The notes under the pieces were generated by a model that was not told the DNA's origin, searched no databases, and saw only the letters and a list, made by a program, of their open reading frames with translations. 64,000 bases of DNA from Thermobaculum terrenum ATCC BAA-798 (GTDB lineage: Bacteria; Chloroflexota; Chloroflexia; Thermobaculales; Thermobaculaceae), in NCBI RefSeq assembly GCF_000025005.1, contig NC_013525.1, forward strand, positions 1,576,501-1,640,500, in the 5' to 3' direction. The stretch's first letter is position 1. Each line of letters begins with the position of its first letter. Positions 5,400 through 21,512 of this stretch are shown one piece after another. Position numbers and translations under genes: made by a program.

Positions 5400-5974
5400 A
5401 ATAGCGCAGCACGAGCCTTCATAAGCATAGTTTCCAATCTACCACTTATATACCTTGCAACTCGTTGGAAGCAAAACAGTAGCAGAAGAGCGGAAACTAG
5501 GCCTACAATTAGCCCAGCAAAGATATCACCCGGATAGTGATCTCCCACGTAGACCCGGGAATAGCACATAAGCAACGCAAACAGCAGCAACAATATGCCC
5601 AAGTACCTGTGGAAATTCATCAATACAAAGGATATTGCCATGGATGCTGCAGCATGATCGCTCGGAAAAGAAGCATCTGGACTGTGATGGAGCAGCAAGT
5701 GAACTGTATTAGGATGCGCGACGTAGGGTCTGGGCCTATACCAGATATGGGCTATAGCCTGATTGGCAGATAATGCCACTACGGCTGCTAACAAAGCAGT
5801 TACAGCGCCAAGAAGTTCTAAACTATCAGCCGTAATTACACCTTGCAAAAGCCACAGGGCCACCACGACTATAAATGCGTACTCACCCCACGCAACTATA
5901 TGCACCATCACACCATCGATTAATGGATGATGTCCTGCGGATGAGTTGATCCATCTTTCAAAAGCGTAGTCCAC
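5396..5974 (-). CDS. PAP2-family membrane phosphatase (undecaprenyl-diphosphatase-like)
   Basis: This 192-aa integral membrane protein has about five to six hydrophobic segments. The three-part PAP2 phosphatase signature is present: a degenerate first motif around WYRPRPYV, then SFPSDHAAA with the catalytic His, and RVYVGDHYPGDIFAG with the second His. Known relatives (BcrC/PgpB type) remove a phosphate from undecaprenyl diphosphate or phosphatidylglycerol phosphate at the outer face of the membrane. The start is GTG at 5974 with GAGG eight bases upstream. There is no operon partner. Specificity between the bactoprenol and PGP roles cannot be decided. Confidence 0.88.
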   Translation of the reverse strand: MDYAFERWINSSAGHHPLIDGVMVHIVAWGEYAFIVVVALWLLQGVITADSLELLGAVTALLAAVVALSANQAIAHIWYRPRPYVAHPNTVHLLLHHSPDASFPSDHAAASMAISFVLMNFHRYLGILLLLFALLMCYSRVYVGDHYPGDIFAGLIVGLVSALLLLFCFQRVARYISGRLETMLMKARAALF

Positions 5975-6069
5975 TTATCGACCTCAAACCGAGAATTTAT
6001 TTTCGAATCACGATGGAGAATACGTAAATGAGACCTATATCCTCTGAAACAAGTTCCATAAACAGCTAA

Positions 6070-6759
6070 CTAATCTTGAGGTCTCCTCATCTCTATCACA
6101 CCATCTTGTGTGCCTACCATTACTAGGGAAGCTATATCTATAAATAGTCCCGTCTCCACAACTCCTGTTACAAGGTGTAACTTGAGATCGAGGTCGCTGG
6201 GATTGGATATAGGGCCAACGTGTAGGTCAAGAACATAATTACCATTGTCAGTTACATATGGCAACCCATCTCTCGTGCGCAGAACCGGCTGTAGTCCCAT
6301 AGACTCGAGCTCTCGTGAAGTCCTAGTCCAACCAAATTGAAGCACTTCTACTGGCACAGGGGATTTTGAGCCTAAGATATCCACTAACTTCGACTCATCC
6401 ACTAGTACCACGAAAACTCTGCTAGCCTTAGCCACTATCTTTTCTCTGGCTAAAGCTCCTCCTAGTCCTTTCACGAGGTTGAGATCGGGGTCGACCTCAT
6501 CTGCGCCATCAAAAGCCATATCTAACTCAGGATGCTCTTCCAATGTAGTAAGTTCGACTCCTGCTGCTTTAGCGGCTGCTACAGTCCTCTCGCTAGTGGG
6601 AACCCCCACAACCCTTAGTCCTTCGTTTCTTACCCTCTCTCCCAGGAATTGCACAAATAACTCAGCAGTGGATCCAGATCCCAAACCTATTAATGCACCA
6701 TCAGGCACGAGTTGAGCTGCTCTATAAGCTACCATCCTTTTGAGATCTAGCTGATTCAA
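6070..6759 (-). CDS. rpiA: Ribose-5-phosphate isomerase A
   Basis: RpiA interconverts ribose 5-phosphate and ribulose 5-phosphate in the pentose phosphate pathway. GLGSGSTAE is the phosphate loop. FDGADEVDPDLNLVKG holds the catalytic Asp residues and GGALAREKIVA the catalytic Glu/Lys. VDESKLVD completes the family signature. The frame is open to 6792. A perfect AGGAGGT at 6775-6769 sits nine bases before a TTG at 6759, so I place the start there, giving 229 aa, the normal family length. It is divergent from the RAM-domain gene at 6908. Confidence 0.94.
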   Translation of the reverse strand: MNQLDLKRMVAYRAAQLVPDGALIGLGSGSTAELFVQFLGERVRNEGLRVVGVPTSERTVAAAKAAGVELTTLEEHPELDMAFDGADEVDPDLNLVKGLGGALAREKIVAKASRVFVVLVDESKLVDILGSKSPVPVEVLQFGWTRTSRELESMGLQPVLRTRDGLPYVTDNGNYVLDLHVGPISNPSDLDLKLHLVTGVVETGLFIDIASLVMVGTQDGVIEMRRPQD

Positions 6760-6907
6760 TTTACAGAAACCTCCTAAGAGCCGATCATTCACTAGTATAG
6801 ATCACTAGCCGTCTATCAGGGGTATATCCTTGTTACTCACTAGAGTTATGATGAGTTAAGATAGACGGTACTATACTCAGCAAGACATACAATTCCAGGA
6901 GGACCAG

Positions 6908-7186
6908 GTGATTACAGCGCTTGTAGAAATAGATGTAGAAAGGGGACGAATCAACGAGGCGGCTCAGAAGCTGGTAGATATAGACGGAGTAGCGGAGGTC
7001 TGGAGTGTTACAGGTGATCACGATCTTGTAGCTCTTCTAAAGCTCAGGGAGTACGATCAGCTCTCCGAGGTAGTAACGAACCATATAGCTTCACTGCCAG
7101 AAGTAGTGAGAACAAAGACTATGCTTGCGTTCAAAGTCTATTCAAAGCAAGAGTTAGAGGAGGCCTGGAACATAGGAGTGGATTAG
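6908..7186 (+). CDS. Stand-alone RAM (Lrp/AsnC ligand-binding) domain protein
   Basis: This 92-aa protein is only the C-terminal effector domain of Lrp/AsnC regulators. It begins ITALVEIDVERGR, passes VTGDHDLVALLKL and ends with the TKTMLAFKVYSK strand, with no helix-turn-helix. Such single RAM domains bind amino acids and oligomerise. They are thought to modulate full-length Lrp proteins or act as small-molecule sensors. The start is GTG at 6908 with AGGAGGA just upstream. The gene faces rnpB and shares the hairpin region at 7196-7235 with it. Confidence 0.88.
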   Translation: MITALVEIDVERGRINEAAQKLVDIDGVAEVWSVTGDHDLVALLKLREYDQLSEVVTNHIASLPEVVRTKTMLAFKVYSKQELEEAWNIGVD

Positions 7187-7195
7187 TAGCCTGAT

Positions 7196-7235
7196 TAAAA
7201 GACATGATGGACCACCAGTTAGGTGGTCCATCATG
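7196..7235 (-). terminator. Intrinsic terminator of rnpB
   Basis: A perfect 14-bp stem (7203-7216 with 7222-7235) closes a five-base loop. Read on the minus strand it is followed at once by TCTTTTAAT, the expected U-rich tract. It lies six bases past the 3' end of rnpB. On the plus strand no T-run follows, so it mainly terminates rnpB, although the hairpin may also block read-through from the RAM gene. Confidence 0.85.
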
Positions 7236-7241
7236 GCATTC

Positions 7242-7614
7242 GCAGGATTCCGTACCCCCCATTCTGTTCTAGTCCACCATCTGTCTCACGTCTTACGACG
7301 TGGTGGCTGCTCGCTCTAGGCGGCTCGCCACTGCGGCAATTACTGCCTTGCTCCCGGACGCACACTCCCCTAGCCGCCGACATTACTGCCGACGCTGCGG
7401 CGATCTTACCGCCGCTGTTTCACCCCTTACCTGTGACCCTGACGGGCCCATCGGCGGGTTAGTTTTCTGTTGGGGTTGTGGTCGTCACGGCTCTCGCCAT
7501 GACCCGCCCTGGCTTGCTGTTTCGCCAGGCGTCCTTGCCCTCGCAGGTCCGGACCCGGGGCTGGGAGTGGGGAAGTTCCTCTGGCACTAGCGCCAGCGGT
7601 GGACCGAATCCTGC
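7242..7614 (-). ncRNA. rnpB: RNase P RNA (catalytic subunit)
   Basis: On the minus strand this roughly 373-nt GC-rich segment carries the conserved core of bacterial RNase P RNA, which matures tRNA 5' ends. Near the 5' end is GAGGAAcuUCC...CUCC (conserved region I). The centre has CAACAGAAAA, CCGCCGATGGGCCC, AGGTAAGGGGTGAAA and GCGGTAAGA (regions II-III). Further on is GTCCGGGAGCAAGGC. Near the 3' end is ACAGAATGGGGGGTA (region V), whose G-run can pair with CCCCA of region I to form P4. The ends pair as P1: GCAGGATTC (7614-7606) with GAATCCTGC (7250-7242). Several short open frames run across it on both strands and are spurious. It is flanked by a promoter and a terminator of its own. Confidence 0.95.
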
Positions 7615-7621
7615 AGCTAAT

Positions 7622-7651
7622 AATATACAAAGCAAGTCGATAAAACGTCAA
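7622..7651 (-). promoter_or_regulatory. Sigma70-type promoter of rnpB
   Basis: On the minus strand TTGACG (7651-7646) and TATATT (7627-7622) are separated by 18 bases. The predicted transcription start about seven bases further, near 7615, coincides with the first base of the P1 helix of rnpB. Confidence 0.75.
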
Positions 7652-7789
7652 CTAAGTAGACAGAAGCATTTTATATATTGTTTGCATGTTATAGATAGTA
7701 AGCTTATTAATTAGGATTACAAAATATAAATATCATGTTATACTTGCTAGCGATTTGCTCAAGACCTATACCCCATTGAGGATGAAGAT

Positions 7790-8656
7790 ATGTCCAGAAA
7801 CATATACAGGTTGGGTATGGCTGCTTTGGCAGTATTGTGGTTATTGTCAGCCTATAGATGTTCACCCCCTGGATCTGCTAAGAGAGACTTAATTCTCGCA
7901 ACCACTACCAGCACTCAGGACTCGGGCTTACTTGATGTACTTATACCTCAATTCGAAAAGCAAACAGGCTACCGTGTAAAAACAGTAGCAGTAGGAACTG
8001 GAGAAGCGCTTGAGATGGGAGAGCAAGGTAACGCCGATGTCCTGCTGGTGCATGCTCCCTCCTCTGAGCTGGAATTCATGAAGACAGGTGCAGGCACAAA
8101 CAGGCACCTTGTGATGTATAACGACTTTATAATCGTAGGGCCTCAAAGCGACCCTGCAAATATTAAGTCAGCGAAAGATGTCATGGAAGCTTTCAGGAGA
8201 ATAGCCACCAGCAAGTCCCTCTTCTTCTCAAGGGGGGATGACTCCGGCACCAACAAGAAGGAGCTGGAAATCTGGAAGCAGGCAGGTATCAGCCCTCAAG
8301 GAGACTGGTATCAGGAGACAGGTAACAGCATGGGGCAGACCCTCCAGATAGCCTCCGAGAAGGGCGGTTACACCCTTACCGATAGAGGTACATACTTAGC
8401 CCTCAGAGACCAACTCGATCTATCCATATTGTTTGAGGGTGACCCAGTGCTACTCAACATATATCATGTGATCCAGGTCAACCCGGATAAATTCCCCAAG
8501 GTAAATGCTGAGGGAGCAAAAGCATTTGTCGACTTCTTGCTGAGTCCTGATACTCAGAAGATGATTGGCAATTTTGGGAAAGACAAATATGGGCAGGCGC
8601 TATTCACACCTTGTGCAAATAACAGCTGTGGGATAGAATCGGCTGCTGATAAGTAA
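7790..8656 (+). CDS. TupA-like tungstate/molybdate-binding lipoprotein
   Basis: This 288-aa periplasmic-type binding protein has a hydrophobic signal segment (10-22) and a Cys at 24 that probably serves as lipid anchor, although the lipobox (SAYRC) is atypical. The mature part starts LATTTSTQDSGLLDVL, the hallmark of the TupA/WtpA-like tungstate-binding family (PBP-like 2). It continues with VAVGTGEALEMGEQGNADVL, FSRGDDSGTNKKE and YTLTDRGTYLA, all typical of TupA. Known TupA delivers tungstate to the TupBC permease and ATPase. No permease or ATPase gene follows; the next gene is on the other strand. It is an orphan binding protein, functionally linked to moeA and mobA in this window. Confidence 0.87.
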   Translation: MSRNIYRLGMAALAVLWLLSAYRCSPPGSAKRDLILATTTSTQDSGLLDVLIPQFEKQTGYRVKTVAVGTGEALEMGEQGNADVLLVHAPSSELEFMKTGAGTNRHLVMYNDFIIVGPQSDPANIKSAKDVMEAFRRIATSKSLFFSRGDDSGTNKKELEIWKQAGISPQGDWYQETGNSMGQTLQIASEKGGYTLTDRGTYLALRDQLDLSILFEGDPVLLNIYHVIQVNPDKFPKVNAEGAKAFVDFLLSPDTQKMIGNFGKDKYGQALFTPCANNSCGIESAADK

Positions 8657-13519: not shown

Positions 13520-14128
13520 ATGAGCAACCCAAAAGATATCACTGGCCTTATACTTGTAGGGGGTAAATCCAGAAGAATGGGCTTTAATAAGGCCCTAATA
13601 GAACTCACTCCCAGTGGACCCACGGTTATACAGACTGTAGCGGATAAACTCAAAGATGTATGCCCTGAAGTAATTCTTGTAGGTTCACAATTAGAACCTT
13701 ATAGATTCCTGAATCTGCCACAGGTTCCTGATGAATTTCCCAATACAGGTTCACTAGGTGGTATATACTCAGGACTCAAATCGGCACGCACCGATTATGC
13801 TCTTGTAGTCGCATGTGATATGCCCTTTTTAAACACGGAGCTCTTAAAATACATGATATCCCTGCCCAGGGACTACGATGTCCTTATACCCGTTCTAGAT
13901 GAACCAGAACCCATGCACGCGATTTACTCGAAGAGATGCATACCCTGGATAGCCCAGAGCATAGAATCTGGAAGCTACAGGATAATAGGTTGGTTTGACC
14001 GCGCGAAGGTCAAGTATATACCTAAGGAAACTATAGCAAGATTTGATTCAGACTTCATGTCATTCTTCAACATGAACACTCCTGAAGAACTAGAATTTGC
14101 CAAGAGCTACATGAACAGGAAGATCTAA
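13520..14128 (+). CDS. mobA: Molybdenum cofactor guanylyltransferase MobA
   Basis: MobA transfers GMP from GTP to molybdopterin to make the guanine-dinucleotide cofactor of DMSO-reductase-type enzymes. The 202-aa protein opens with the nucleotidyltransferase motif GLILVGGKSRRMGFNKAL (9-26). PNTGSLGGIYSGL and VVACDMPFL, with the metal-binding Asp, follow. The C-terminal region around NMNTPEEL completes the family pattern. It begins six bases after the polyprenyl synthase stop, so they are cotranscribed. With moeA in the same window it indicates that MGD-containing enzymes are made. Confidence 0.93.
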   Translation: MSNPKDITGLILVGGKSRRMGFNKALIELTPSGPTVIQTVADKLKDVCPEVILVGSQLEPYRFLNLPQVPDEFPNTGSLGGIYSGLKSARTDYALVVACDMPFLNTELLKYMISLPRDYDVLIPVLDEPEPMHAIYSKRCIPWIAQSIESGSYRIIGWFDRAKVKYIPKETIARFDSDFMSFFNMNTPEELEFAKSYMNRKI

Positions 14129-14153
14129 ATACCTGATATACTCTCCCAGAAAG

Positions 14154-14963
14154 ATGTTCAGCTCAATTACACTGGTCAAGACCAACCGCTACTTGTTAGC
14201 GGGTACTATAGCTTCAGCACTATTACTTGTAGTCCTGCTGGGATCCAGCTTCCTGGACCAAGCCAAGATATTTCACGTGCTCAGGTGGTTACATTCGGGA
14301 CTAGATTACCATCCAGATAACTCCCACTCAATAATGCTTGGAGGATTTCCGAGCGTAGTATGTGCACGTAATACAGGCATTTATGTAGGCACTTTGACCG
14401 TATACTTCTGGTCTTTACTCTCCTCGAGAACCAGGTTGTTCGGTTTTCCCAGCTTGAGGATCTCTATAATCCTGGCGTCTTTCGTAGTGCTAATGGCCGT
14501 AGATGGCTTCAACTCCTTAGCTCATGATCTAGGCATATCCACACCCTATAAGACCACAACGCTCACTAGGCTTGGTACAGGACTGCTAATGGGAACGGCT
14601 GCTGGATGCTTCTTAGTACCAGTCTTGAATGGGATGCTTTGGAAGGAATCTAGCAACAAACCTTTCGTGGATAACACCCGTAGCCTAGCTGGTCTATTAT
14701 GCATGCAAGTCCCACTATTTCTAATAGTAGCACTGAAGTTGGACTTCTTTGCTTTGCCGCTCGCCCTAGTAACAACTATGGCGACTATTGTTTTATTCAC
14801 CACTATCAATCTGATATTCATAGTAGCTATCTTTAACAGACTTAATAAAGCGCGAAACCTATTAGATATACTTCCTGAGATCTCGATTTCGGTCTTGCTC
14901 TCCCTTGGAGAGCTGTCTATAACAGCAATACTTGTCCCCAGGTTTCTGCTTGGGCTTGGATAA
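14154..14963 (+). CDS. DUF2085 membrane protein
   Basis: A 269-aa membrane protein with about six hydrophobic segments. The conserved DUF2085 motif is recognisable as SIMLGGFPSVVCARNTGIYVG (around 62-82), corresponding to the family's CxRCxGIY signature with one Cys replaced by Asn. A second conserved patch is AVDGFNSLAHDLG. The function of the family is unknown. Its TAA overlaps the ATG of the C39/TPR gene by one base, so the two are translationally coupled. Confidence 0.8.
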   Translation: MFSSITLVKTNRYLLAGTIASALLLVVLLGSSFLDQAKIFHVLRWLHSGLDYHPDNSHSIMLGGFPSVVCARNTGIYVGTLTVYFWSLLSSRTRLFGFPSLRISIILASFVVLMAVDGFNSLAHDLGISTPYKTTTLTRLGTGLLMGTAAGCFLVPVLNGMLWKESSNKPFVDNTRSLAGLLCMQVPLFLIVALKLDFFALPLALVTTMATIVLFTTINLIFIVAIFNRLNKARNLLDILPEISISVLLSLGELSITAILVPRFLLGLG

Positions 14964-16069
14964 TGACTCAGATTGTGCAACATAAGCTGGTTCAAATATC
15001 AATACTCTTACTAGTCGCCCTAACAACAGCTGTCGTGAGTCCTGCCACAGTGCGTGGAGCACTAGTTATGCCTGACAGCTATATCAGCAAGCCAAAGACT
15101 AGAGATCTCAATACACTTCCCCTGCAAAGGATTCCAAACTCGTGGTATCTTAGTGGCATTCCCTATCAGAAGCAATGGGAAAACAATTGTGGGCCAGTTA
15201 CCACGAATATGGTACTTGGGTTCTATGGAATTAGATTAAGCCAGGCATACACTGCCAACAAGCTTCGCCCTCGTAGAGATGATGTTTCTGTTTCTGGCCT
15301 GGAGATGGTTAACTTCTCAAAGATCGAGTATGGTCTCCAGGGAGATGTAGGTTATAGCGGATCGCTGAGAACTATAGAGGCTCTTATCTCTAACAACATC
15401 CCGGTGATAGTCCTGCAGCCATTTAAGATAGGGTCTGATATTAACCACTTTCGAGTAGTTAGTGGATACAACAGGACAAGTCGTACCTTTGTTATACAAG
15501 ACTCCATCCTTGGCAAAGACCTGATTTGGACTTACGACTATTTCTTGAACCTATGGAAACAAAGAGGAAGAATCTATATAGCAATCTATCCACCCAGTAA
15601 GGCTAAGATCGTAAAACAGATAAGGAATAGCTACGATTTGCCTAGAAAGAGACTCCAATTATCAGAGCTGGACATGGCTCAAAAAGCCGTTAGGCAAGCA
15701 CCTCAGGACCCCTGGGTGTGGCTGAACCTTGGTAGAGAACTGTACTACTCAGAAAGATACAAAGACTCGTACGCAGCGTGGAACAAAGCCCTATCACTAG
15801 GACTGCCAAGAAGAGCACTCTGGTATATGCCCTGGCCCGTTTACCTGCTCAACGAGCTAGGTTTACACGAGCAGGCGATATCGCTGGCAAATCAAGCTCT
15901 TCAAACTATACCTGCTTCTTCTGAGCTTTACTATGGTCGTGCTATAGCGTACGAAGCGATCGGGAATAACCAAGCAGCCTTGAGAGATCTACGTACGGCC
16001 CTTGCCTATGCACCATACCATCCGTATTATAGACAGGCATTGAGGGAGTTTATGAGGAGGTACAGATAG
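14963..16069 (+). CDS. Exported C39-like cysteine peptidase with TPR repeats
   Basis: A 368-aa exported protein. A signal segment covers about 8-34 (LVQISILLLVALTTAVVSPATVRGA). A papain-like C39-type domain follows, with the catalytic Cys in NNCGPVTTNMVLGFYG, the His in INHFRVVSGYN and the Asp in FVIQDSI. From about residue 240 come two to three tetratricopeptide repeats (DPWVWLNLGRELYYSERYKDSYAAW and AISLANQALQTIPASSELYYGRA). Stand-alone C39_2 domains are usually exported peptidases of unknown target. The TPRs suggest protein binding. No bacteriocin exporter or peptide gene is visible beside it. Confidence 0.85.
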   Translation: MTQIVQHKLVQISILLLVALTTAVVSPATVRGALVMPDSYISKPKTRDLNTLPLQRIPNSWYLSGIPYQKQWENNCGPVTTNMVLGFYGIRLSQAYTANKLRPRRDDVSVSGLEMVNFSKIEYGLQGDVGYSGSLRTIEALISNNIPVIVLQPFKIGSDINHFRVVSGYNRTSRTFVIQDSILGKDLIWTYDYFLNLWKQRGRIYIAIYPPSKAKIVKQIRNSYDLPRKRLQLSELDMAQKAVRQAPQDPWVWLNLGRELYYSERYKDSYAAWNKALSLGLPRRALWYMPWPVYLLNELGLHEQAISLANQALQTIPASSELYYGRAIAYEAIGNNQAALRDLRTALAYAPYHPYYRQALREFMRRYR

Positions 16070-16072
16070 GCT

Positions 16073-16513
16073 GTGATCTTATGCTGGATCCTTAGCTTGC
16101 TTTCAGGGGCAGGGTACATAACTTTATCTCTTCTCCAACTAATGCCACCGCTGATAAAACAAGGCCCCTGGGGCATAAAAGGGCCACTTGCAGGAGACCT
16201 TTTCGGATTACTAGCTACGAATCTCTATCTAGCGATACTCCACCTACTAATCGGCACAATAGCCCTAGCCAGCTCGAAGAGTTATAAGACTTCCCAAAAC
16301 TTTTGCCTCTATGGTGGATTATTTCTCGCAGCTTTGTTCATATTTGGACAAGCAAATCAGCGTATACCGACTCTAGGTGGATATCTACCTCTAGATCTAT
16401 CTCAAGATGCACTACACCTTCTAAGCTCTACTCTCCTACTTTCAGCATACATAGTTAACAAGGCCATGGGAGCAAACAATTTAGAGCAAGATATTGCTAT
16501 TAGGCACGATTAG
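16073..16513 (+). CDS. DUF4383-like four-helix membrane protein, first copy
   Basis: A 146-aa protein with four hydrophobic segments. Its layout follows that of the next gene: an opening span, LAGDLFGLLATNLYLAILHLLIG, a third span, and LPLDLSQDALHLLSS matching MNMPDHILHLVTA. I read it as a diverged paralogue of the DUF4383 protein at 16571. It starts at GTG 16073 with GAGGAGG ten bases upstream, three bases past the TPR gene. The function is unknown. Confidence 0.75.
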   Translation: MILCWILSLLSGAGYITLSLLQLMPPLIKQGPWGIKGPLAGDLFGLLATNLYLAILHLLIGTIALASSKSYKTSQNFCLYGGLFLAALFIFGQANQRIPTLGGYLPLDLSQDALHLLSSTLLLSAYIVNKAMGANNLEQDIAIRHD

Positions 16514-16570
16514 TGCTACTCCTTCATTAGAGGGTCTTAACCCTCAAAAAAACGGGAAGGAGGTGAAATC

Positions 16571-16984
16571 ATGGCTCCCGTTCAAACATTGGCATTGGTC
16601 TTTGGAATCATCTATACGATAGTAGGCATAGCTGGGTTCATTCCTGCCCTTATTACGGGTAACCCTCCAGCTAACGCCTTAGGTCCTGAAAGTCTATCAG
16701 GTAATCTGCTTGGTATCTTCGCAATCAATCTTTACCACAGCATCGCACATCTAGTGATAGGACTGATAGGCCTAGGAGTTTACCGAAACTTCTCCGCTTC
16801 CAGGACTTATGCATTAGTAGTAGGAATCATCTATGCACTCCTCTTCATACTCGGAATTATAGGTGTAGATTTTGGTGGTCTTATTCCCATGAATATGCCG
16901 GATCATATATTGCATCTGGTAACGGCGGTAATATTCCTGGTAATTTACTATCAGTCCGCCAGGAGTGCCCCGGCAACGACCTAG
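16571..16984 (+). CDS. DUF4383 membrane protein, second copy
   Basis: A 137-aa protein with four membrane spans and the typical DUF4383 pattern: VFGIIYTIVGIAGFIP, then NLLGIFAINLYHSIAHLVIGL, a third span, and NMPDHILHLVTAVIF. The conserved His residues on spans two and four are present. The start is ATG at 16571 behind GGAAGGAGG. Family function is unknown. It ends the plus-strand run begun at 11486 and is followed by a strong hairpin. Confidence 0.85.
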   Translation: MAPVQTLALVFGIIYTIVGIAGFIPALITGNPPANALGPESLSGNLLGIFAINLYHSIAHLVIGLIGLGVYRNFSASRTYALVVGIIYALLFILGIIGVDFGGLIPMNMPDHILHLVTAVIFLVIYYQSARSAPATT

Positions 16985-17018
16985 GGGCGAAAGCAACATC
17001 AGGTTCCAAAGACCAGCC

Positions 17019-17050
17019 AGAAGGGGGTAGAGTATCTACCCCCTTCTTTC
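17019..17050. terminator. Terminator hairpin between converging genes
   Basis: A perfect 12-bp stem (17019-17030 with 17036-17047) closes a five-base loop, and TTC follows on the plus strand. The downstream arm contains the last codons and stop of the minus-strand DNA methyltransferase gene, so the same hairpin serves both directions. The T-tract is better on the plus strand. Confidence 0.7.
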
Positions 17051-17875
17051 ATATTCTAATGGAGGTTCGAAGGGCTTAGTCTCTAACTGAACTGAAGCAC
17101 CGATAGCTTTCAGCCTTTCTATACATATAGAAATAGCTTCCGGAGACGAATCCATCCCTATCCATTGCCTCTCAAGCTTATGAGCAGCCACTAAGGTAGT
17201 GCCGGAACCACAAAATGGGTCCAGTACTATATCTCCCTTATCGCTCGAGGCGACAATTATGCGGCGCAACAGTTCTTCCGGCTTCTGGCTCGGGTAACCA
17301 GTTCTTTCAGGGGAGAGGGGATTAACTATAGGGATGAACCAAACATCATCTAGGACCTTTCCTAACGGATGCGGAGAGTAAAACTTACCAGAGCGGGCGC
17401 GTATACCTGACCGCGCGTATCCACTGGTTTTAGCATATGGTTCGCGAACCGCATCAACATTGAACTTATATTTTCTAGTTTTGTGATACACGAGAATATT
17501 GTCATGTTTATGGGGAAAATGGCGAGATCCTCTCCCACCTCCTGTATAGTGCCATATAATCTCGTTCTGAAAGTTATTGGCTCCAAAAATGTCGTCCATT
17601 AACAAACGGACGTAGTGTACACTTCGTCGATCTAGATGAAGATAAAATGTACCGTCCTCAGACAAGATCCTATGTATCTCACACAACCTCGGAGCTAGCC
17701 ACTCAAGATAGTGGTCTATGCCTTGCCAGACATCATTGTATTTTCCGTTCTCATCAACCCTGATCCTATTAGTACGAAAGGGAGGGTCCGCATAAACAAG
17801 AGTAACAGATCCGCTAGCCAGCTTCTTGAGAAAAGATAAATTATCCCCAAGGTATACAGTTCCCATCGAGGGCAA
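17036..17875 (-). CDS. Solitary DNA methyltransferase (N6-adenine/N4-cytosine, beta class)
   Basis: A 279-aa site-specific DNA methyltransferase of the N6_N4_Mtase family. The catalytic motif IV appears early as YADPPFRTN (about 31-39). Motif I comes late as LDPFCGSGTTLVAAH, followed by WIGMDSSPEAI. This order, catalytic before SAM-binding, marks the beta class. The catalytic tetrapeptide is DPPF instead of the common DPPY/SPPY. The recognition sequence is unknown. The start is TTG 17875 or ATG 17866, with no good ribosome site; coupling to the gene eight bases upstream is likely. No restriction endonuclease gene is visible, so it is an orphan methyltransferase. Confidence 0.9.
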   Translation of the reverse strand: MPSMGTVYLGDNLSFLKKLASGSVTLVYADPPFRTNRIRVDENGKYNDVWQGIDHYLEWLAPRLCEIHRILSEDGTFYLHLDRRSVHYVRLLMDDIFGANNFQNEIIWHYTGGGRGSRHFPHKHDNILVYHKTRKYKFNVDAVREPYAKTSGYARSGIRARSGKFYSPHPLGKVLDDVWFIPIVNPLSPERTGYPSQKPEELLRRIIVASSDKGDIVLDPFCGSGTTLVAAHKLERQWIGMDSSPEAISICIERLKAIGASVQLETKPFEPPLEYERRG

Positions 17876-17883
17876 GTATATAC

Positions 17884-18696
17884 TTACGAGCGAACTTTAT
17901 CTATCTCTAGGCGGCTACGCCAGTGCACCCTTTCAGCCCCCAATGTATCCACGAAGGCTTCTACTACGGACTTAAAGTACGAGCTATCGAGGAATCGATC
18001 AAAATAGTGCTGCCTATAGAGCTCTAGGCCATATCCTTTTGCCTTGGGGAAACGAATAGTATCTATGTACACACGCTCTGCAACGCCTGATAGCAACATG
18101 GCCAGGTTATATGGGTTACAGGGCAGCAGAGGGGAAACGGAGGCGCCTGTAATTATCCCTGCCGACCTTAGCGCATGCAACGCTTCTAGTCTTTTATGAA
18201 TCGAGGGGGCATGAGGTTCAAAAATCTTCCTGAATTCGTCGTTATCAGTAGTTATGCTCATATAGACCTCTAGCCTGTCTCCAAAGGCTTGCAGCAATTC
18301 GATATCGTCCACAACGAAAGGAGATCTAGTGTGTATATGTATCTTGCTAGGGCCTGGGAACATAGACAACATAACCTCAAGACAGGACCTAGTCAGCCTA
18401 TATTGCCTCTCAATTGGTTGATAAGGATCAGTCGCTGAAGAGATAAACACAGAAGCGAAAGCCAATTTTCGGGATGACTTATAGACTAGCTCAGGAGCAT
18501 TTATCTTAGGTCTCACCCACTTGCCCCAGGAAGCCTCAAGCTGGTCGTCATGGGTAAATTCCTTAGCATAGCAATAAGAGCATCCAAAGGCACAACCACG
18601 ATACGGGTTCAGACTATAGGAATAGCTACCACTAAGAGCTCCCACCTTTTGAGGAGTAAGAATACTTCGAGCTTCAGAAGCGGTAATCTTTGGCAT
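17884..18696 (-). CDS. SPL-like radical SAM protein
   Basis: A 270-aa radical SAM enzyme. The iron-sulfur cluster motif is GCAFGCSYCYA (CxxxCxxC, about 34-44), preceded by SLNPYRGC, which is typical of the spore-photoproduct-lyase-like/Rv2578c branch. Later motifs are FISSATDPYQPIE, IHIHTRSPFVVDDI, VYMSITTDND and ITGASVSPLLPC. True SplB repairs spore photoproducts in DNA; this branch is widespread in non-sporulating bacteria and its substrate is unknown. The start is ATG 18696 behind GGAGGGG. It is followed by a DNA methyltransferase and preceded by an NYN nuclease, suggesting a nucleic-acid role. Confidence 0.88.
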   Translation of the reverse strand: MPKITASEARSILTPQKVGALSGSYSYSLNPYRGCAFGCSYCYAKEFTHDDQLEASWGKWVRPKINAPELVYKSSRKLAFASVFISSATDPYQPIERQYRLTRSCLEVMLSMFPGPSKIHIHTRSPFVVDDIELLQAFGDRLEVYMSITTDNDEFRKIFEPHAPSIHKRLEALHALRSAGIITGASVSPLLPCNPYNLAMLLSGVAERVYIDTIRFPKAKGYGLELYRQHYFDRFLDSSYFKSVVEAFVDTLGAERVHWRSRLEIDKVRS

Positions 18697-18749
18697 ATAT
18701 GTCCCCTCCTAGAGCGATACATGGGGATTATAGCACGCAAGTTCTTAGA

Positions 18750-19322
18750 TTACCACCGGTCTCGAAAATTCTTAGGAGTTCCTATTTCTAGGTCTTCAAC
18801 ACATAACATGATCCAATCATCGCGGGTGAAGAAGATACACTGTTTACATACGGAAAAGGACCGAAGTTTGGATACCCCGGCTTTAGATGGCTTGGGATCC
18901 GACTGAGGAGAATATTTTCTGGACCCCCTGGATCTTGGTCTAATAGTGTCTAGTAACTTCTCTACTGACCAGACTTTCGGGCCTCTTTGCAAAGTTCGAG
19001 CACGTAACTGAGAGTCATTGGTGACCACTAAATCGTCCGACTTAGCCATGTTAACTATCAAATCATCTGCCGAATCTCGGCCGGAGTATATTACCTTCAC
19101 CTTATTATTGGGTTTAAACCCTCTAGATGGAGGACCATCAAAAACAACTACTATTTGATATGCGGCTAGTTTGGACGCTTTGCCAAGTAGCTGTACTAGT
19201 TGTAGTCGAGCCTTGTCAGCTCCATCTCTCTCTATAGATCTCAAATAGGGATCGCATCTTATGACGTTGTATCCATCCACAATCATCCTAGACATCTTAT
19301 ACAAGATACTAACAGATACCAC
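18750..19322 (-). CDS. NYN-domain (YacP/Rae1-like) ribonuclease
   Basis: A protein of up to 190 aa. The core MIVDGYNVIRCDP, VVVFDGPPSRG and VIYSGRDSADDLIV...VVTNDSQLR is the NYN/PIN-like fold with its acidic cluster (first Asp in IVDGYN, then DSADD and TND). Relatives such as YacP/Rae1 cut mRNA on ribosomes. A basic linker (RPRSRGSRKYSPQSDPKPSK) leads to an unfamiliar C-terminal segment with CKQC. The frame opens at GTG 19322, but the ATG at 19295 (MSRMIVDGYN) may be the true start. It is first of a three-gene minus-strand set with the radical SAM protein and DNA methyltransferase. Confidence 0.82.
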   Translation of the reverse strand: MVSVSILYKMSRMIVDGYNVIRCDPYLRSIERDGADKARLQLVQLLGKASKLAAYQIVVVFDGPPSRGFKPNNKVKVIYSGRDSADDLIVNMAKSDDLVVTNDSQLRARTLQRGPKVWSVEKLLDTIRPRSRGSRKYSPQSDPKPSKAGVSKLRSFSVCKQCIFFTRDDWIMLCVEDLEIGTPKNFRDRW

Positions 19323-19508
19323 ACCGGATTCAACCTTTTAAGTAAACAAAAAAGAAGCTCCTAGGACTCCTTTGCAAATCTCGAAATCACAATCCATCAG
19401 CTGTAAAGTCTGAACCCAATATCAGTTACCTTGTACTTGGAGCATACGTTATAGTATTGCTTAGTTCCGACGATTGCGGTCCCTTTACTAAGTCAGAGGA
19501 GGTAGATC

Positions 19509-21512
19509 TTGAGCAGGATACTCAGATGGGGAATATTAGGCACTGGACGTATAGCTGGGATATTCGCACGGGGCGTGCAGGACTCGGTCTCGGGTAAGCT
19601 TGTTGCTGTCGGCAGCAGGTCAGAAGAATCCGCAAGTAGGTTTGCCAAAGAGTTTAACATTCCCAAGGCTTACGCATCCTATGAAGAGCTACTCGCTGAT
19701 CCAGAGGTAGAAGCAGTTTATATAGCCACACCACACCCTATGCATGCCCAATGGGCTATTAGAGCAGCTGAAGCCGGCAAACACATACTCTGTGAGAAGC
19801 CTCTTGCATTGAACCACGCTGAAGCTATGGCAATAGTAGAAGCAGCTAAGGAACATGATGTCTTTCTGATGGAAGCATTTATGTACAGATGCCATCCTCA
19901 GACTGCTCGAGTAGTTGATATGATCAGAGATGGTGCCATTGGCAATGTTCGAACGATACAGGCTACTTTCAGCTTCGATGCAGGAAGCAATCCAGGAAGC
20001 AGGCTACTGAGGCAAGATCTTGGCGGTGGGGGTATCCTAGATGTTGGATGCTACTGCACATCAATGGCACGACTTATAGCCGGTGTAGCCCTGGGGAAAG
20101 ATTTTGCGGACCCAATAGAGCTCAAGGCCGTAGGGCATATCGGCGAAGAATCCAGAGTTGACGAGTATACAGCCGCAGTGCTGAAGTTTCCCGGAGAAAT
20201 CATAGCTCAGCTCGCCACGGGAGTACGGGTTAAGCAGGAGGACGGAGTCAGAATCTACGGCTCAGATGGATGGATACATATACCTGAGCCATGGATTCCG
20301 GGACCAAACGGCGAACCCACAAGCATATTCCTATATAAGAAGGGTCAGAGCACTCCAGAAGAGATCGTAGTTGATCCTGGTAGCCCGCTTTATGCCATCG
20401 AGGCAGATACGGTCGCTTCTCACATAGAAGACAGGCAGGCTCCTTCTCCAGCTATGACCTGGGAAGATTCTCTTGGGAATATGCGTACGCTCGATATGTG
20501 GAGAGAACAAATAGGCATGATTTACGACAGCGAGAGACCCGAAGCAAATACGCTCCCAGTCCACGGACGCCCCCTGAGGGTCCGCCCCGATAACAAGATG
20601 AAATATGGGCACGTTCAAGGTATAGATAAGCCTATATCGAGGCTAGTAATGGGTGTGGACAATCAACGCACCATGCCCCACCTAGCAGTTATGCTGGATG
20701 ATTTCTTTGAAAGAGGTGGGACTTGCTTCGATACGGCTTACATATACATGGGAGGTCTATCTGAAAAGCTGCTTGGACAGTGGGTGAAGAACAGGGGCAT
20801 TAGAGAGCAGGTAGTTATCGTAGGAAAGGGAGCTCATACTCCTTATTGTGATCCGGAAAACCTAACAAAACAGCTGCTGGAAAGTCTTGATAGGCTGCAG
20901 ACAGACTATATAGATCTGTACTTTATGCACCGAGACAACCCCGAAATACCTGTAGGCGAATTTGTAGAGGTACTTAACGAGCACCTTCGAGCAGGTAGGA
21001 TAAGAGCTTTTGGAGGTTCAAACTGGACTATACAGAGGGTAGAAGAGGCAAACAAGTACGCGAGAGAGCATGGATTGACAGGATTTGCAGCAGTGAGCAA
21101 CAACTTCAGCCTTGCCAGGATGATAGAGCCACCCTGGGCAGGATGCATCTCGTCATCTGACCCAGAATCCCGAGCATGGTTCGAGCGGAATCAGATGCCA
21201 CTGTTCTCGTGGTCGAGTCAGGCTCGTGGTTTCTTTACAGGCCGGGCTCGTCCAGATGACTTCTCAGATCCTGAATTAGTACGTTGCTGGTATAGCGAGG
21301 ACAACTTCCGTCGTCTGGAGCGTGTGAACCAATTAGCCAGGGAAAAGGGAGTAGAACCAATAAATATCGCTCTCGCCTACGTACTATCTCAACCCTTTCC
21401 CACATTTGCGCTAATAGGACCAAGGGCACTATCTGAAACCCATTCTTCCTTAAAGGCTCTGGAAATCGAGCTTACCCCAGAAGAAGTGAAATGGCTCAAT
21501 CTTGAAGCCTGA
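19509..21512 (+). CDS. Fusion protein: Gfo/Idh/MocA dehydrogenase plus aldo/keto reductase
   Basis: One uninterrupted 667-aa frame joins two oxidoreductases. Residues 1 to about 340 are Gfo/Idh/MocA: the Rossmann start RWGILGTGRIAG, the catalytic EKPLALN, and GGGGILDVGCYC. From about 355 an aldo/keto reductase barrel follows. It has FDTAYIY (Asp and Tyr of the tetrad), VIVGKGAH (Lys), LYFMHRDNP (His) and the NADP-side IALAYVLSQPFPTFALIGP. Both active sites look intact. The start is TTG 19509 behind AGAGGAGG. The GH13 gene begins 21 bases later, so the pair probably works on released sugars. Domain coupling of two redox steps is my inference. Confidence 0.9.
   Translation: MSRILRWGILGTGRIAGIFARGVQDSVSGKLVAVGSRSEESASRFAKEFNIPKAYASYEELLADPEVEAVYIATPHPMHAQWAIRAAEAGKHILCEKPLALNHAEAMAIVEAAKEHDVFLMEAFMYRCHPQTARVVDMIRDGAIGNVRTIQATFSFDAGSNPGSRLLRQDLGGGGILDVGCYCTSMARLIAGVALGKDFADPIELKAVGHIGEESRVDEYTAAVLKFPGEIIAQLATGVRVKQEDGVRIYGSDGWIHIPEPWIPGPNGEPTSIFLYKKGQSTPEEIVVDPGSPLYAIEADTVASHIEDRQAPSPAMTWEDSLGNMRTLDMWREQIGMIYDSERPEANTLPVHGRPLRVRPDNKMKYGHVQGIDKPISRLVMGVDNQRTMPHLAVMLDDFFERGGTCFDTAYIYMGGLSEKLLGQWVKNRGIREQVVIVGKGAHTPYCDPENLTKQLLESLDRLQTDYIDLYFMHRDNPEIPVGEFVEVLNEHLRAGRIRAFGGSNWTIQRVEEANKYAREHGLTGFAAVSNNFSLARMIEPPWAGCISSSDPESRAWFERNQMPLFSWSSQARGFFTGRARPDDFSDPELVRCWYSEDNFRRLERVNQLAREKGVEPINIALAYVLSQPFPTFALIGPRALSETHSSLKALEIELTPEEVKWLNLEA

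Follow-up and report, generated by a model that had tools for sequence, protein, structure and literature searches.

Orphan DNA methyltransferases conserved across the majority of related species form a described class (PMC4752239), and for the Chloroflexi of Lake Biwa, which share GANTC and TTAA methylation, PMC6329791 lists the methylases as lying outside any RM system. Radical SAM proteins resembling SplB are tied to SOS-type repair neighbourhoods in PMC3765255, and archaeal NreB adjoins SplB-like genes whose role is left open in the review concerned (PMC4929162). For the spore photoproduct lyase (SPL) of B. subtilis itself, PMC3742179 gives the cysteines C91, C95 and C98, the donor C141 and the tyrosines Y97 and Y99. 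We recognised no description of a methyltransferase, a radical SAM protein and an NYN ribonuclease together, in a literature search that was thin on subscription journals.

Genes for these three enzymes, each of which belongs to a known kind, stand side by side in the thermophilic soil bacterium Thermobaculum terrenum YNP1, described in PMC3035366 as a non-spore-forming member of the phylum Chloroflexi. They lie within the window, by which we mean the whole 64,000-nucleotide stretch of chromosome 1 that was analysed (G000:C1:1576501-1640500, on a contig of 2,026,947 bases in a genome of 3,101,581). All three are on the minus strand: a solitary beta-class DNA methyltransferase of the N6_N4_Mtase family (17036-17875, ORF of 279 aa); a radical SAM protein with the cluster motif CAFGCSYC (17884-18696, ORF of 270 aa), of the SplB-like group that we take to be COG1533-type; and an NYN/YacP, Rae1-like ribonuclease with a lineage-specific C-terminal tail bearing cysteines (18750-19322, ORF of 190 aa). 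An earlier note on this DNA had given the strand and the gaps between the genes, 8 bases between methyltransferase and radical SAM and 53 bases between radical SAM and NYN, and the ORF listing bears these out. Each protein is well above the cut-off of its Pfam family (NYN_YacP, 68.5 bits against 24.6; Radical_SAM, 54.6 against 29.5; N6_N4_Mtase, 192.5 against 26.7), and we regard the ORFs as genes rather than chance frames because they are conserved in other genomes. Comparison with relatives suggests that the methyltransferase begins at ATG 17866 and NYN at ATG 19295. The neighbours scanned with Pfam are a MobA-like transferase, a DUF2085 protein, a C39-like peptidase with TPRs, two DUF4383 proteins and a GFO/IDH-aldo/keto reductase fusion, and beyond them lies a glucosidase-like protein with a GlgB-type PADLOC match. 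The two DUF4383 membrane-protein genes are adjacent (16073-16984) and apparently a duplicated pair. Having compared the locus across the seven genomes of the order, G000 (T. terrenum) to G006, and beyond, we think it likely that the three enzymes work separately and that their adjacency is a lineage-specific, partly conserved neighbourhood; the trio is probably not a dedicated system.

In the methyltransferase METHYLTRANSFERASE (gene 17036-17875) the motifs follow the beta-class order, DPPF then DPFCGSGT, and its classification as a beta-class DNA methyltransferase in the earlier note stands, with an N6_N4_Mtase domain above cut-off, a catalytic DPP[YF] and a SAM-binding DPFxGSGT. A DPP motif with D goes with m6A. 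Among solved structures, M.MboIIA, M.RsrI and an unnamed methyltransferase come out as the best relatives of the enzyme. The DPPF motif had been thought unusual; it is in fact normal for the clade, since nearly all clade frames carry it (42/42 cellular frames scoring 250 bits or more against the clade profile, a count in which overlapping loci enter some genes repeatedly, and 13/14 viral frames matching the clade). Besides T. terrenum, five genomes of the order carry the enzyme at 64-67% identity, and G006 alone among the seven searched gave no close homologue. The six order members form one clade in the methyltransferase tree (support 100/98), within which T. terrenum groups with G003 at just 87/90. 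With six of seven genomes carrying it, the enzyme is conserved in a majority of its relatives' genomes, the criterion that PMC4752239 applies to orphan methylases. No restriction domain was found by Pfam in nine proteins, the trio and six neighbours (13520-21512), where unknown types could escape, and no restriction or effector partner of known type was recognised there or among the ten flanking proteins scanned with PADLOC, in keeping with the earlier remark that a restriction enzyme is missing. The enzyme thus resembles the orphan beta-class m6A methylases of the CcrM/YhdJ type in family, in motif order, in having no partner nuclease in view and in being kept across the order, and it differs from them in scoring below the cut-offs of the CcrM and PRK11524 models, the latter of which we take to be YhdJ. 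Seven homologues were fetched from family f8, presumably Herpetosiphon-like, and at the five loci with flanks listed no restriction gene was apparent by eye; these homologues also appear to stand alone. By analogy with the conserved orphan methylases, the T. terrenum protein would be a stand-alone m6A-type DNA methylase marking one short motif genome-wide, and from its family, motifs and conservation we infer both the m6A chemistry and a regulatory role. A second DPPF methylase, likewise solitary and with no evident partner, is encoded in T. terrenum (L116:6347-7222; G000:C1 about 384346-385221), and proteins like it, 48-53% identical to the window methylase, occur throughout the order (7/7 genomes) as well as in other families. 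L004 was considered as a third DNA methylase and set aside, its protein reading by eye as an RNA or other N-methylase.

The sole PDB sequence match to the NYN protein is YacP/Rae1 of B. subtilis (E 6e-7), which also heads the fold matches to the NYN structure model, and the acidic active-site residues D16, D62, D86 and D103 show no variation across 28 aligned NYN sequences. With the NYN_YacP domain above cut-off, these observations uphold the RNase fold that had been read from the sequence. We would expect the protein to cut mRNA as a metal-dependent endoribonuclease of the Rae1/YacP type. The protein shares domain, acidic residues and fold with Rae1, and it differs in its order-specific, cysteine-bearing tail. 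This tail (window 18750-18900) contains CxxC...DDWxMLC, is seen just within the order, and is left unresolved in the structure model, at a pLDDT of about 45; the NYN gene of G002 has a frame break in it, and most of the 28 other NYN tails inspected from the phylum (Chloroflexota) are rich in basic residues. In four relatives (G001, G002, G004 and G005) the NYN gene adjoins an RskA-type anti-sigma gene, at L107:13923-15821, L109:4973-7021, L111:9565-10903 and L114:6861-8141, a neighbour absent from the window copy. An ECF-sigma-like gene is also near NYN in G001 and G004; for this context the RskA-like domain was tested in G004 and the sigma domain in G001.

The nearest solved fold to the radical SAM protein is that of SPL. 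An AlphaFold2 model made from 70 sequences (mean pLDDT 93.8) retrieved SPL first in Foldseek (E 4e-10) and in VIA-align (Z 19.7, rmsd 3.5, 240 residues, 15% identity), with 4fhf and its relatives leading both lists and viperin as the next kind in VIA-align (Z 15.9). A single-sequence search returned no solved relative, and the profile matched solved RlmN at E 0.0004. The cysteines C35, C39 and C42 of the CxxxCxxC cluster motif are invariant in 70/70 aligned sequences, as are Y41 and Y43, which flank the last cluster cysteine and correspond by motif position to Y97 and Y99 of SPL. The likeness ends at the donor cysteine: SPL has its C141 43 residues past the last cluster cysteine, whereas the T. 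terrenum protein has no cysteine at residues 43-104, an absence judged from spacing and alignment without superposition on SPL coordinates. Among the relatives, only 5/70 carry any cysteine where they align to residues 78-100.

The spore photoproduct lyase model TIGR04070 gives the T. terrenum radical SAM protein 16.8 bits against a cut-off of 400, and a search of the T. terrenum genome with it found no match at E 0.001. The best family-level matches in NCBIfam are PA0069 (NF033668; 132.1 bits, cut-off 360), radical SAM mobile pair protein B (90 bits, cut-off 410) and Rv2578c (83 bits, cut-off 430), yet none comes near its curated cut-off. G002 encodes a separate SPL-type protein (L325:1459-2538) that reaches 129 bits to TIGR04070, also below 400; to this nearer SPL-type protein the radical SAM profile aligns only in a partial, late match. 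The T. terrenum protein thus agrees with SPL in cluster motif, tyrosines and nearest solved fold, and departs from it in the donor cysteine and the family score; the non-spore-forming host is a further difference. It appears to be an SPL-fold radical SAM enzyme, though not one that is filed as an SPL. We infer from motif, tyrosine positions and fold that it would bind a 4Fe-4S cluster and SAM and make a 5'-deoxyadenosyl radical, and that its target would be some lesion in nucleic acid, or a modified base, that is not spore photoproduct.

The neighbours of its relatives were surveyed at the best 80 of 212 genome loci and at 68 viral loci. An Nre gene is present in 14 loci of this survey, all 14 labelled archaeal, and lies within about 220 bases of the radical SAM relative in nine of the 14; the relatives stand directly beside Nre at L165, L179, L182, L183, L186, L187, L188, L190 and L194. 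This adjacency repeats the published observation. The archaeal SplB-like proteins next to NreB belong to the same radical SAM group as the T. terrenum protein (roughly 32-48% identity over the matched part), whose gene differs in having NYN and methylase as neighbours and no adjacent Nre. At four loci (L133, L134, L139 and L174) a UvrD-helicase-type gene adjoins the relative. Three of these records are labelled Flaviaesturariibacter, Chitinophagaceae and Hymenobacter, and the fourth, L139, is a 'Gammaproteobacteria' MAG that is possibly mis-binned, since its helicase is 91% identical to that of the Flaviaesturariibacter-labelled record. Taken as gene neighbourhoods, these loci point to a putative repair role for the family and to nothing specific to T. 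terrenum. The idea that the locus serves DNA modification or repair is accordingly plausible for the radical SAM protein by itself, through its fold and its archaeal neighbours, and does not extend to the trio as a whole. One viral locus, L207:117-2836, has genes for TcmP (three-Cys-motif partner), an SPL-like radical SAM protein and a methylase in a row.

The alternative that survives best is one DNA-maintenance unit, in which the methylase would mark DNA, the radical SAM enzyme would repair or alter bases and NYN would trim nucleic acid or tune expression; we regard it as unlikely. What speaks for it comes from G003, a member of another genus, where the three genes keep the strand and order of T. 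terrenum and the gap between NYN (7322-7858) and radical SAM (6472-7263) is similar, at 58 bases against 53. Within the 20 kb fetched from G003, nothing beyond the trio matched a window protein. The trio is thus the one shared segment amid dissimilar flanks, and this is the best evidence for a link: order and strand are kept, which exceeds the expectation of random scatter. The 8-base link between radical SAM and methyltransferase, the tightest in T. terrenum, is nevertheless broken in G003 by an opposite-strand ORF (5655-6455) that reads, by eye, as nucleotidyltransferase-like.

Against the unit stands the rest of the order, where absences are provisional because several genomes are fragmented drafts. 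NYN is present in six of the seven genomes and radical SAM in three (G000, G002 and G003); these same three hold all three genes, clustered in just two of the seven, T. terrenum and G003, and placed on three different contigs in G002. In G001, G004 and G005 the methylase and NYN are present and no radical SAM gene was detected. The row in G004 consists of a sigma-like gene, an anti-sigma gene, NYN, an AHSA1-glyoxalase fusion and the methyltransferase, with no radical SAM match in that genome. NYN and methyltransferase lie within about 2 kb of each other in three of the six genomes that have both (G000, G003 and G004) and on different contigs in G001, G002 and G005. The wider searches also count against the unit. 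Among the best 80 of the 212 radical SAM genome loci, the single convincing trio was G003's own record. Across the phylum, 122/400 genomes had an NYN match and 29/400 a strong radical SAM match, and among the best 30 loci of each, with 1.5 kb flanks, another trio gene appeared at the window locus alone, leaving 0/28 further NYN and 0/28 further radical SAM loci outside the order. Two loci were rejected as trio support: at L177 the methylase and NYN-profile frames overlap on opposite strands (NYN, 27.6 bits), and at L191 the methylase is a fragment. The earlier note had proposed conservation of gene order as the check on its unit and scattered occurrence, along with independent transcription here, as what would refute it, and scattered occurrence is largely what the comparison returned; the recurrence in G003 leaves the unit claim holding weakly.

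The extended -10-like sequence TGCTATAAT, in the gap between NYN and radical SAM (18727..18735, minus strand), could be a separate promoter; because 3.1 occurrences of TGNTATAAT are expected by chance in the window, where TGCTATAAT is the sole one, it is suggestive by position alone. Read directly from the sequence, the Shine-Dalgarno-like AGGAGGGG precedes the radical SAM start codon (18703..18710, minus strand), and a 53-base gap holding both elements fits a separate start for the radical SAM gene and possible independent transcription. By the same direct reading, no clear ribosome-binding site precedes the methylase start, so that in T. terrenum the methylase is probably coupled to radical SAM; the 8-base gap suggests that these two would be co-transcribed here, a coupling absent in G003. 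An ancestral transcription unit may have been common to NYN and radical SAM, and the link between them may be real and non-obligate. At the other end, between the convergent methyltransferase and DUF4383 genes, a 13-pair hairpin (17019..17047, no strand assigned) is terminator-like on the plus strand. A cluster peculiar to the Thermobaculum lineage could also be imagined, in which the SPL-fold enzyme lacking the SPL-type cysteine and the Rae1-like nuclease would repair or edit a base lesion and the methylase would provide the context, for example methylated sites; we hold this to be decidedly improbable.

It is very unlikely that radical SAM and methylase arrived next to NYN as recent phage cargo. 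Both families do have viral members (of 50,697 phage records, 9 hold radical SAM and 1028 the methylase), and at four IMG/VR loci a radical SAM gene adjoins some methylase. However, the 68 viral loci have seven methylase frames within 2 kb and five further off, too few to carry the argument, and we rejected joint travel of the two genes in viruses on this about two-fold density from few events, mostly unlike the window's clade. No phage genes were seen in the Pfam-scanned flanks, GC is even over the trio in the window at 0.45, and the nearest relatives found lie on chromosomes of order members.

To a defence module, with the orphan methylase as self-mark and NYN as effector nuclease, we attach next to no probability: methylase and nuclease are close together, PADLOC methyltransferase models match the methylase and a CRISPR-associated NYN ribonuclease is known from PMC11346440, but PADLOC gave no match for NYN, which is closest to the mRNA-acting Rae1, and a weak pVip match alone for the radical SAM protein (E 0.054), the methylase is inherited within the order, and the locus is not a defence island because the ten flanking proteins gave only the GlgB-type match on the glucosidase-like protein. 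PADLOC on the trio and these flanking proteins thus yields nothing in support of the defence-like module first suggested for this locus.

With the three enzymes taken to work separately in a partly conserved neighbourhood, the trio as such is mostly ordinary and it is the radical SAM member that matters most. SplB-like proteins occur widely, in bacteria and archaea as well as in viruses, and what they act on is a wider question than this locus. Coming from a cultured, thermophilic, non-spore-forming aerobe, the T. terrenum radical SAM protein would be a convenient one with which to find an SplB-like substrate.
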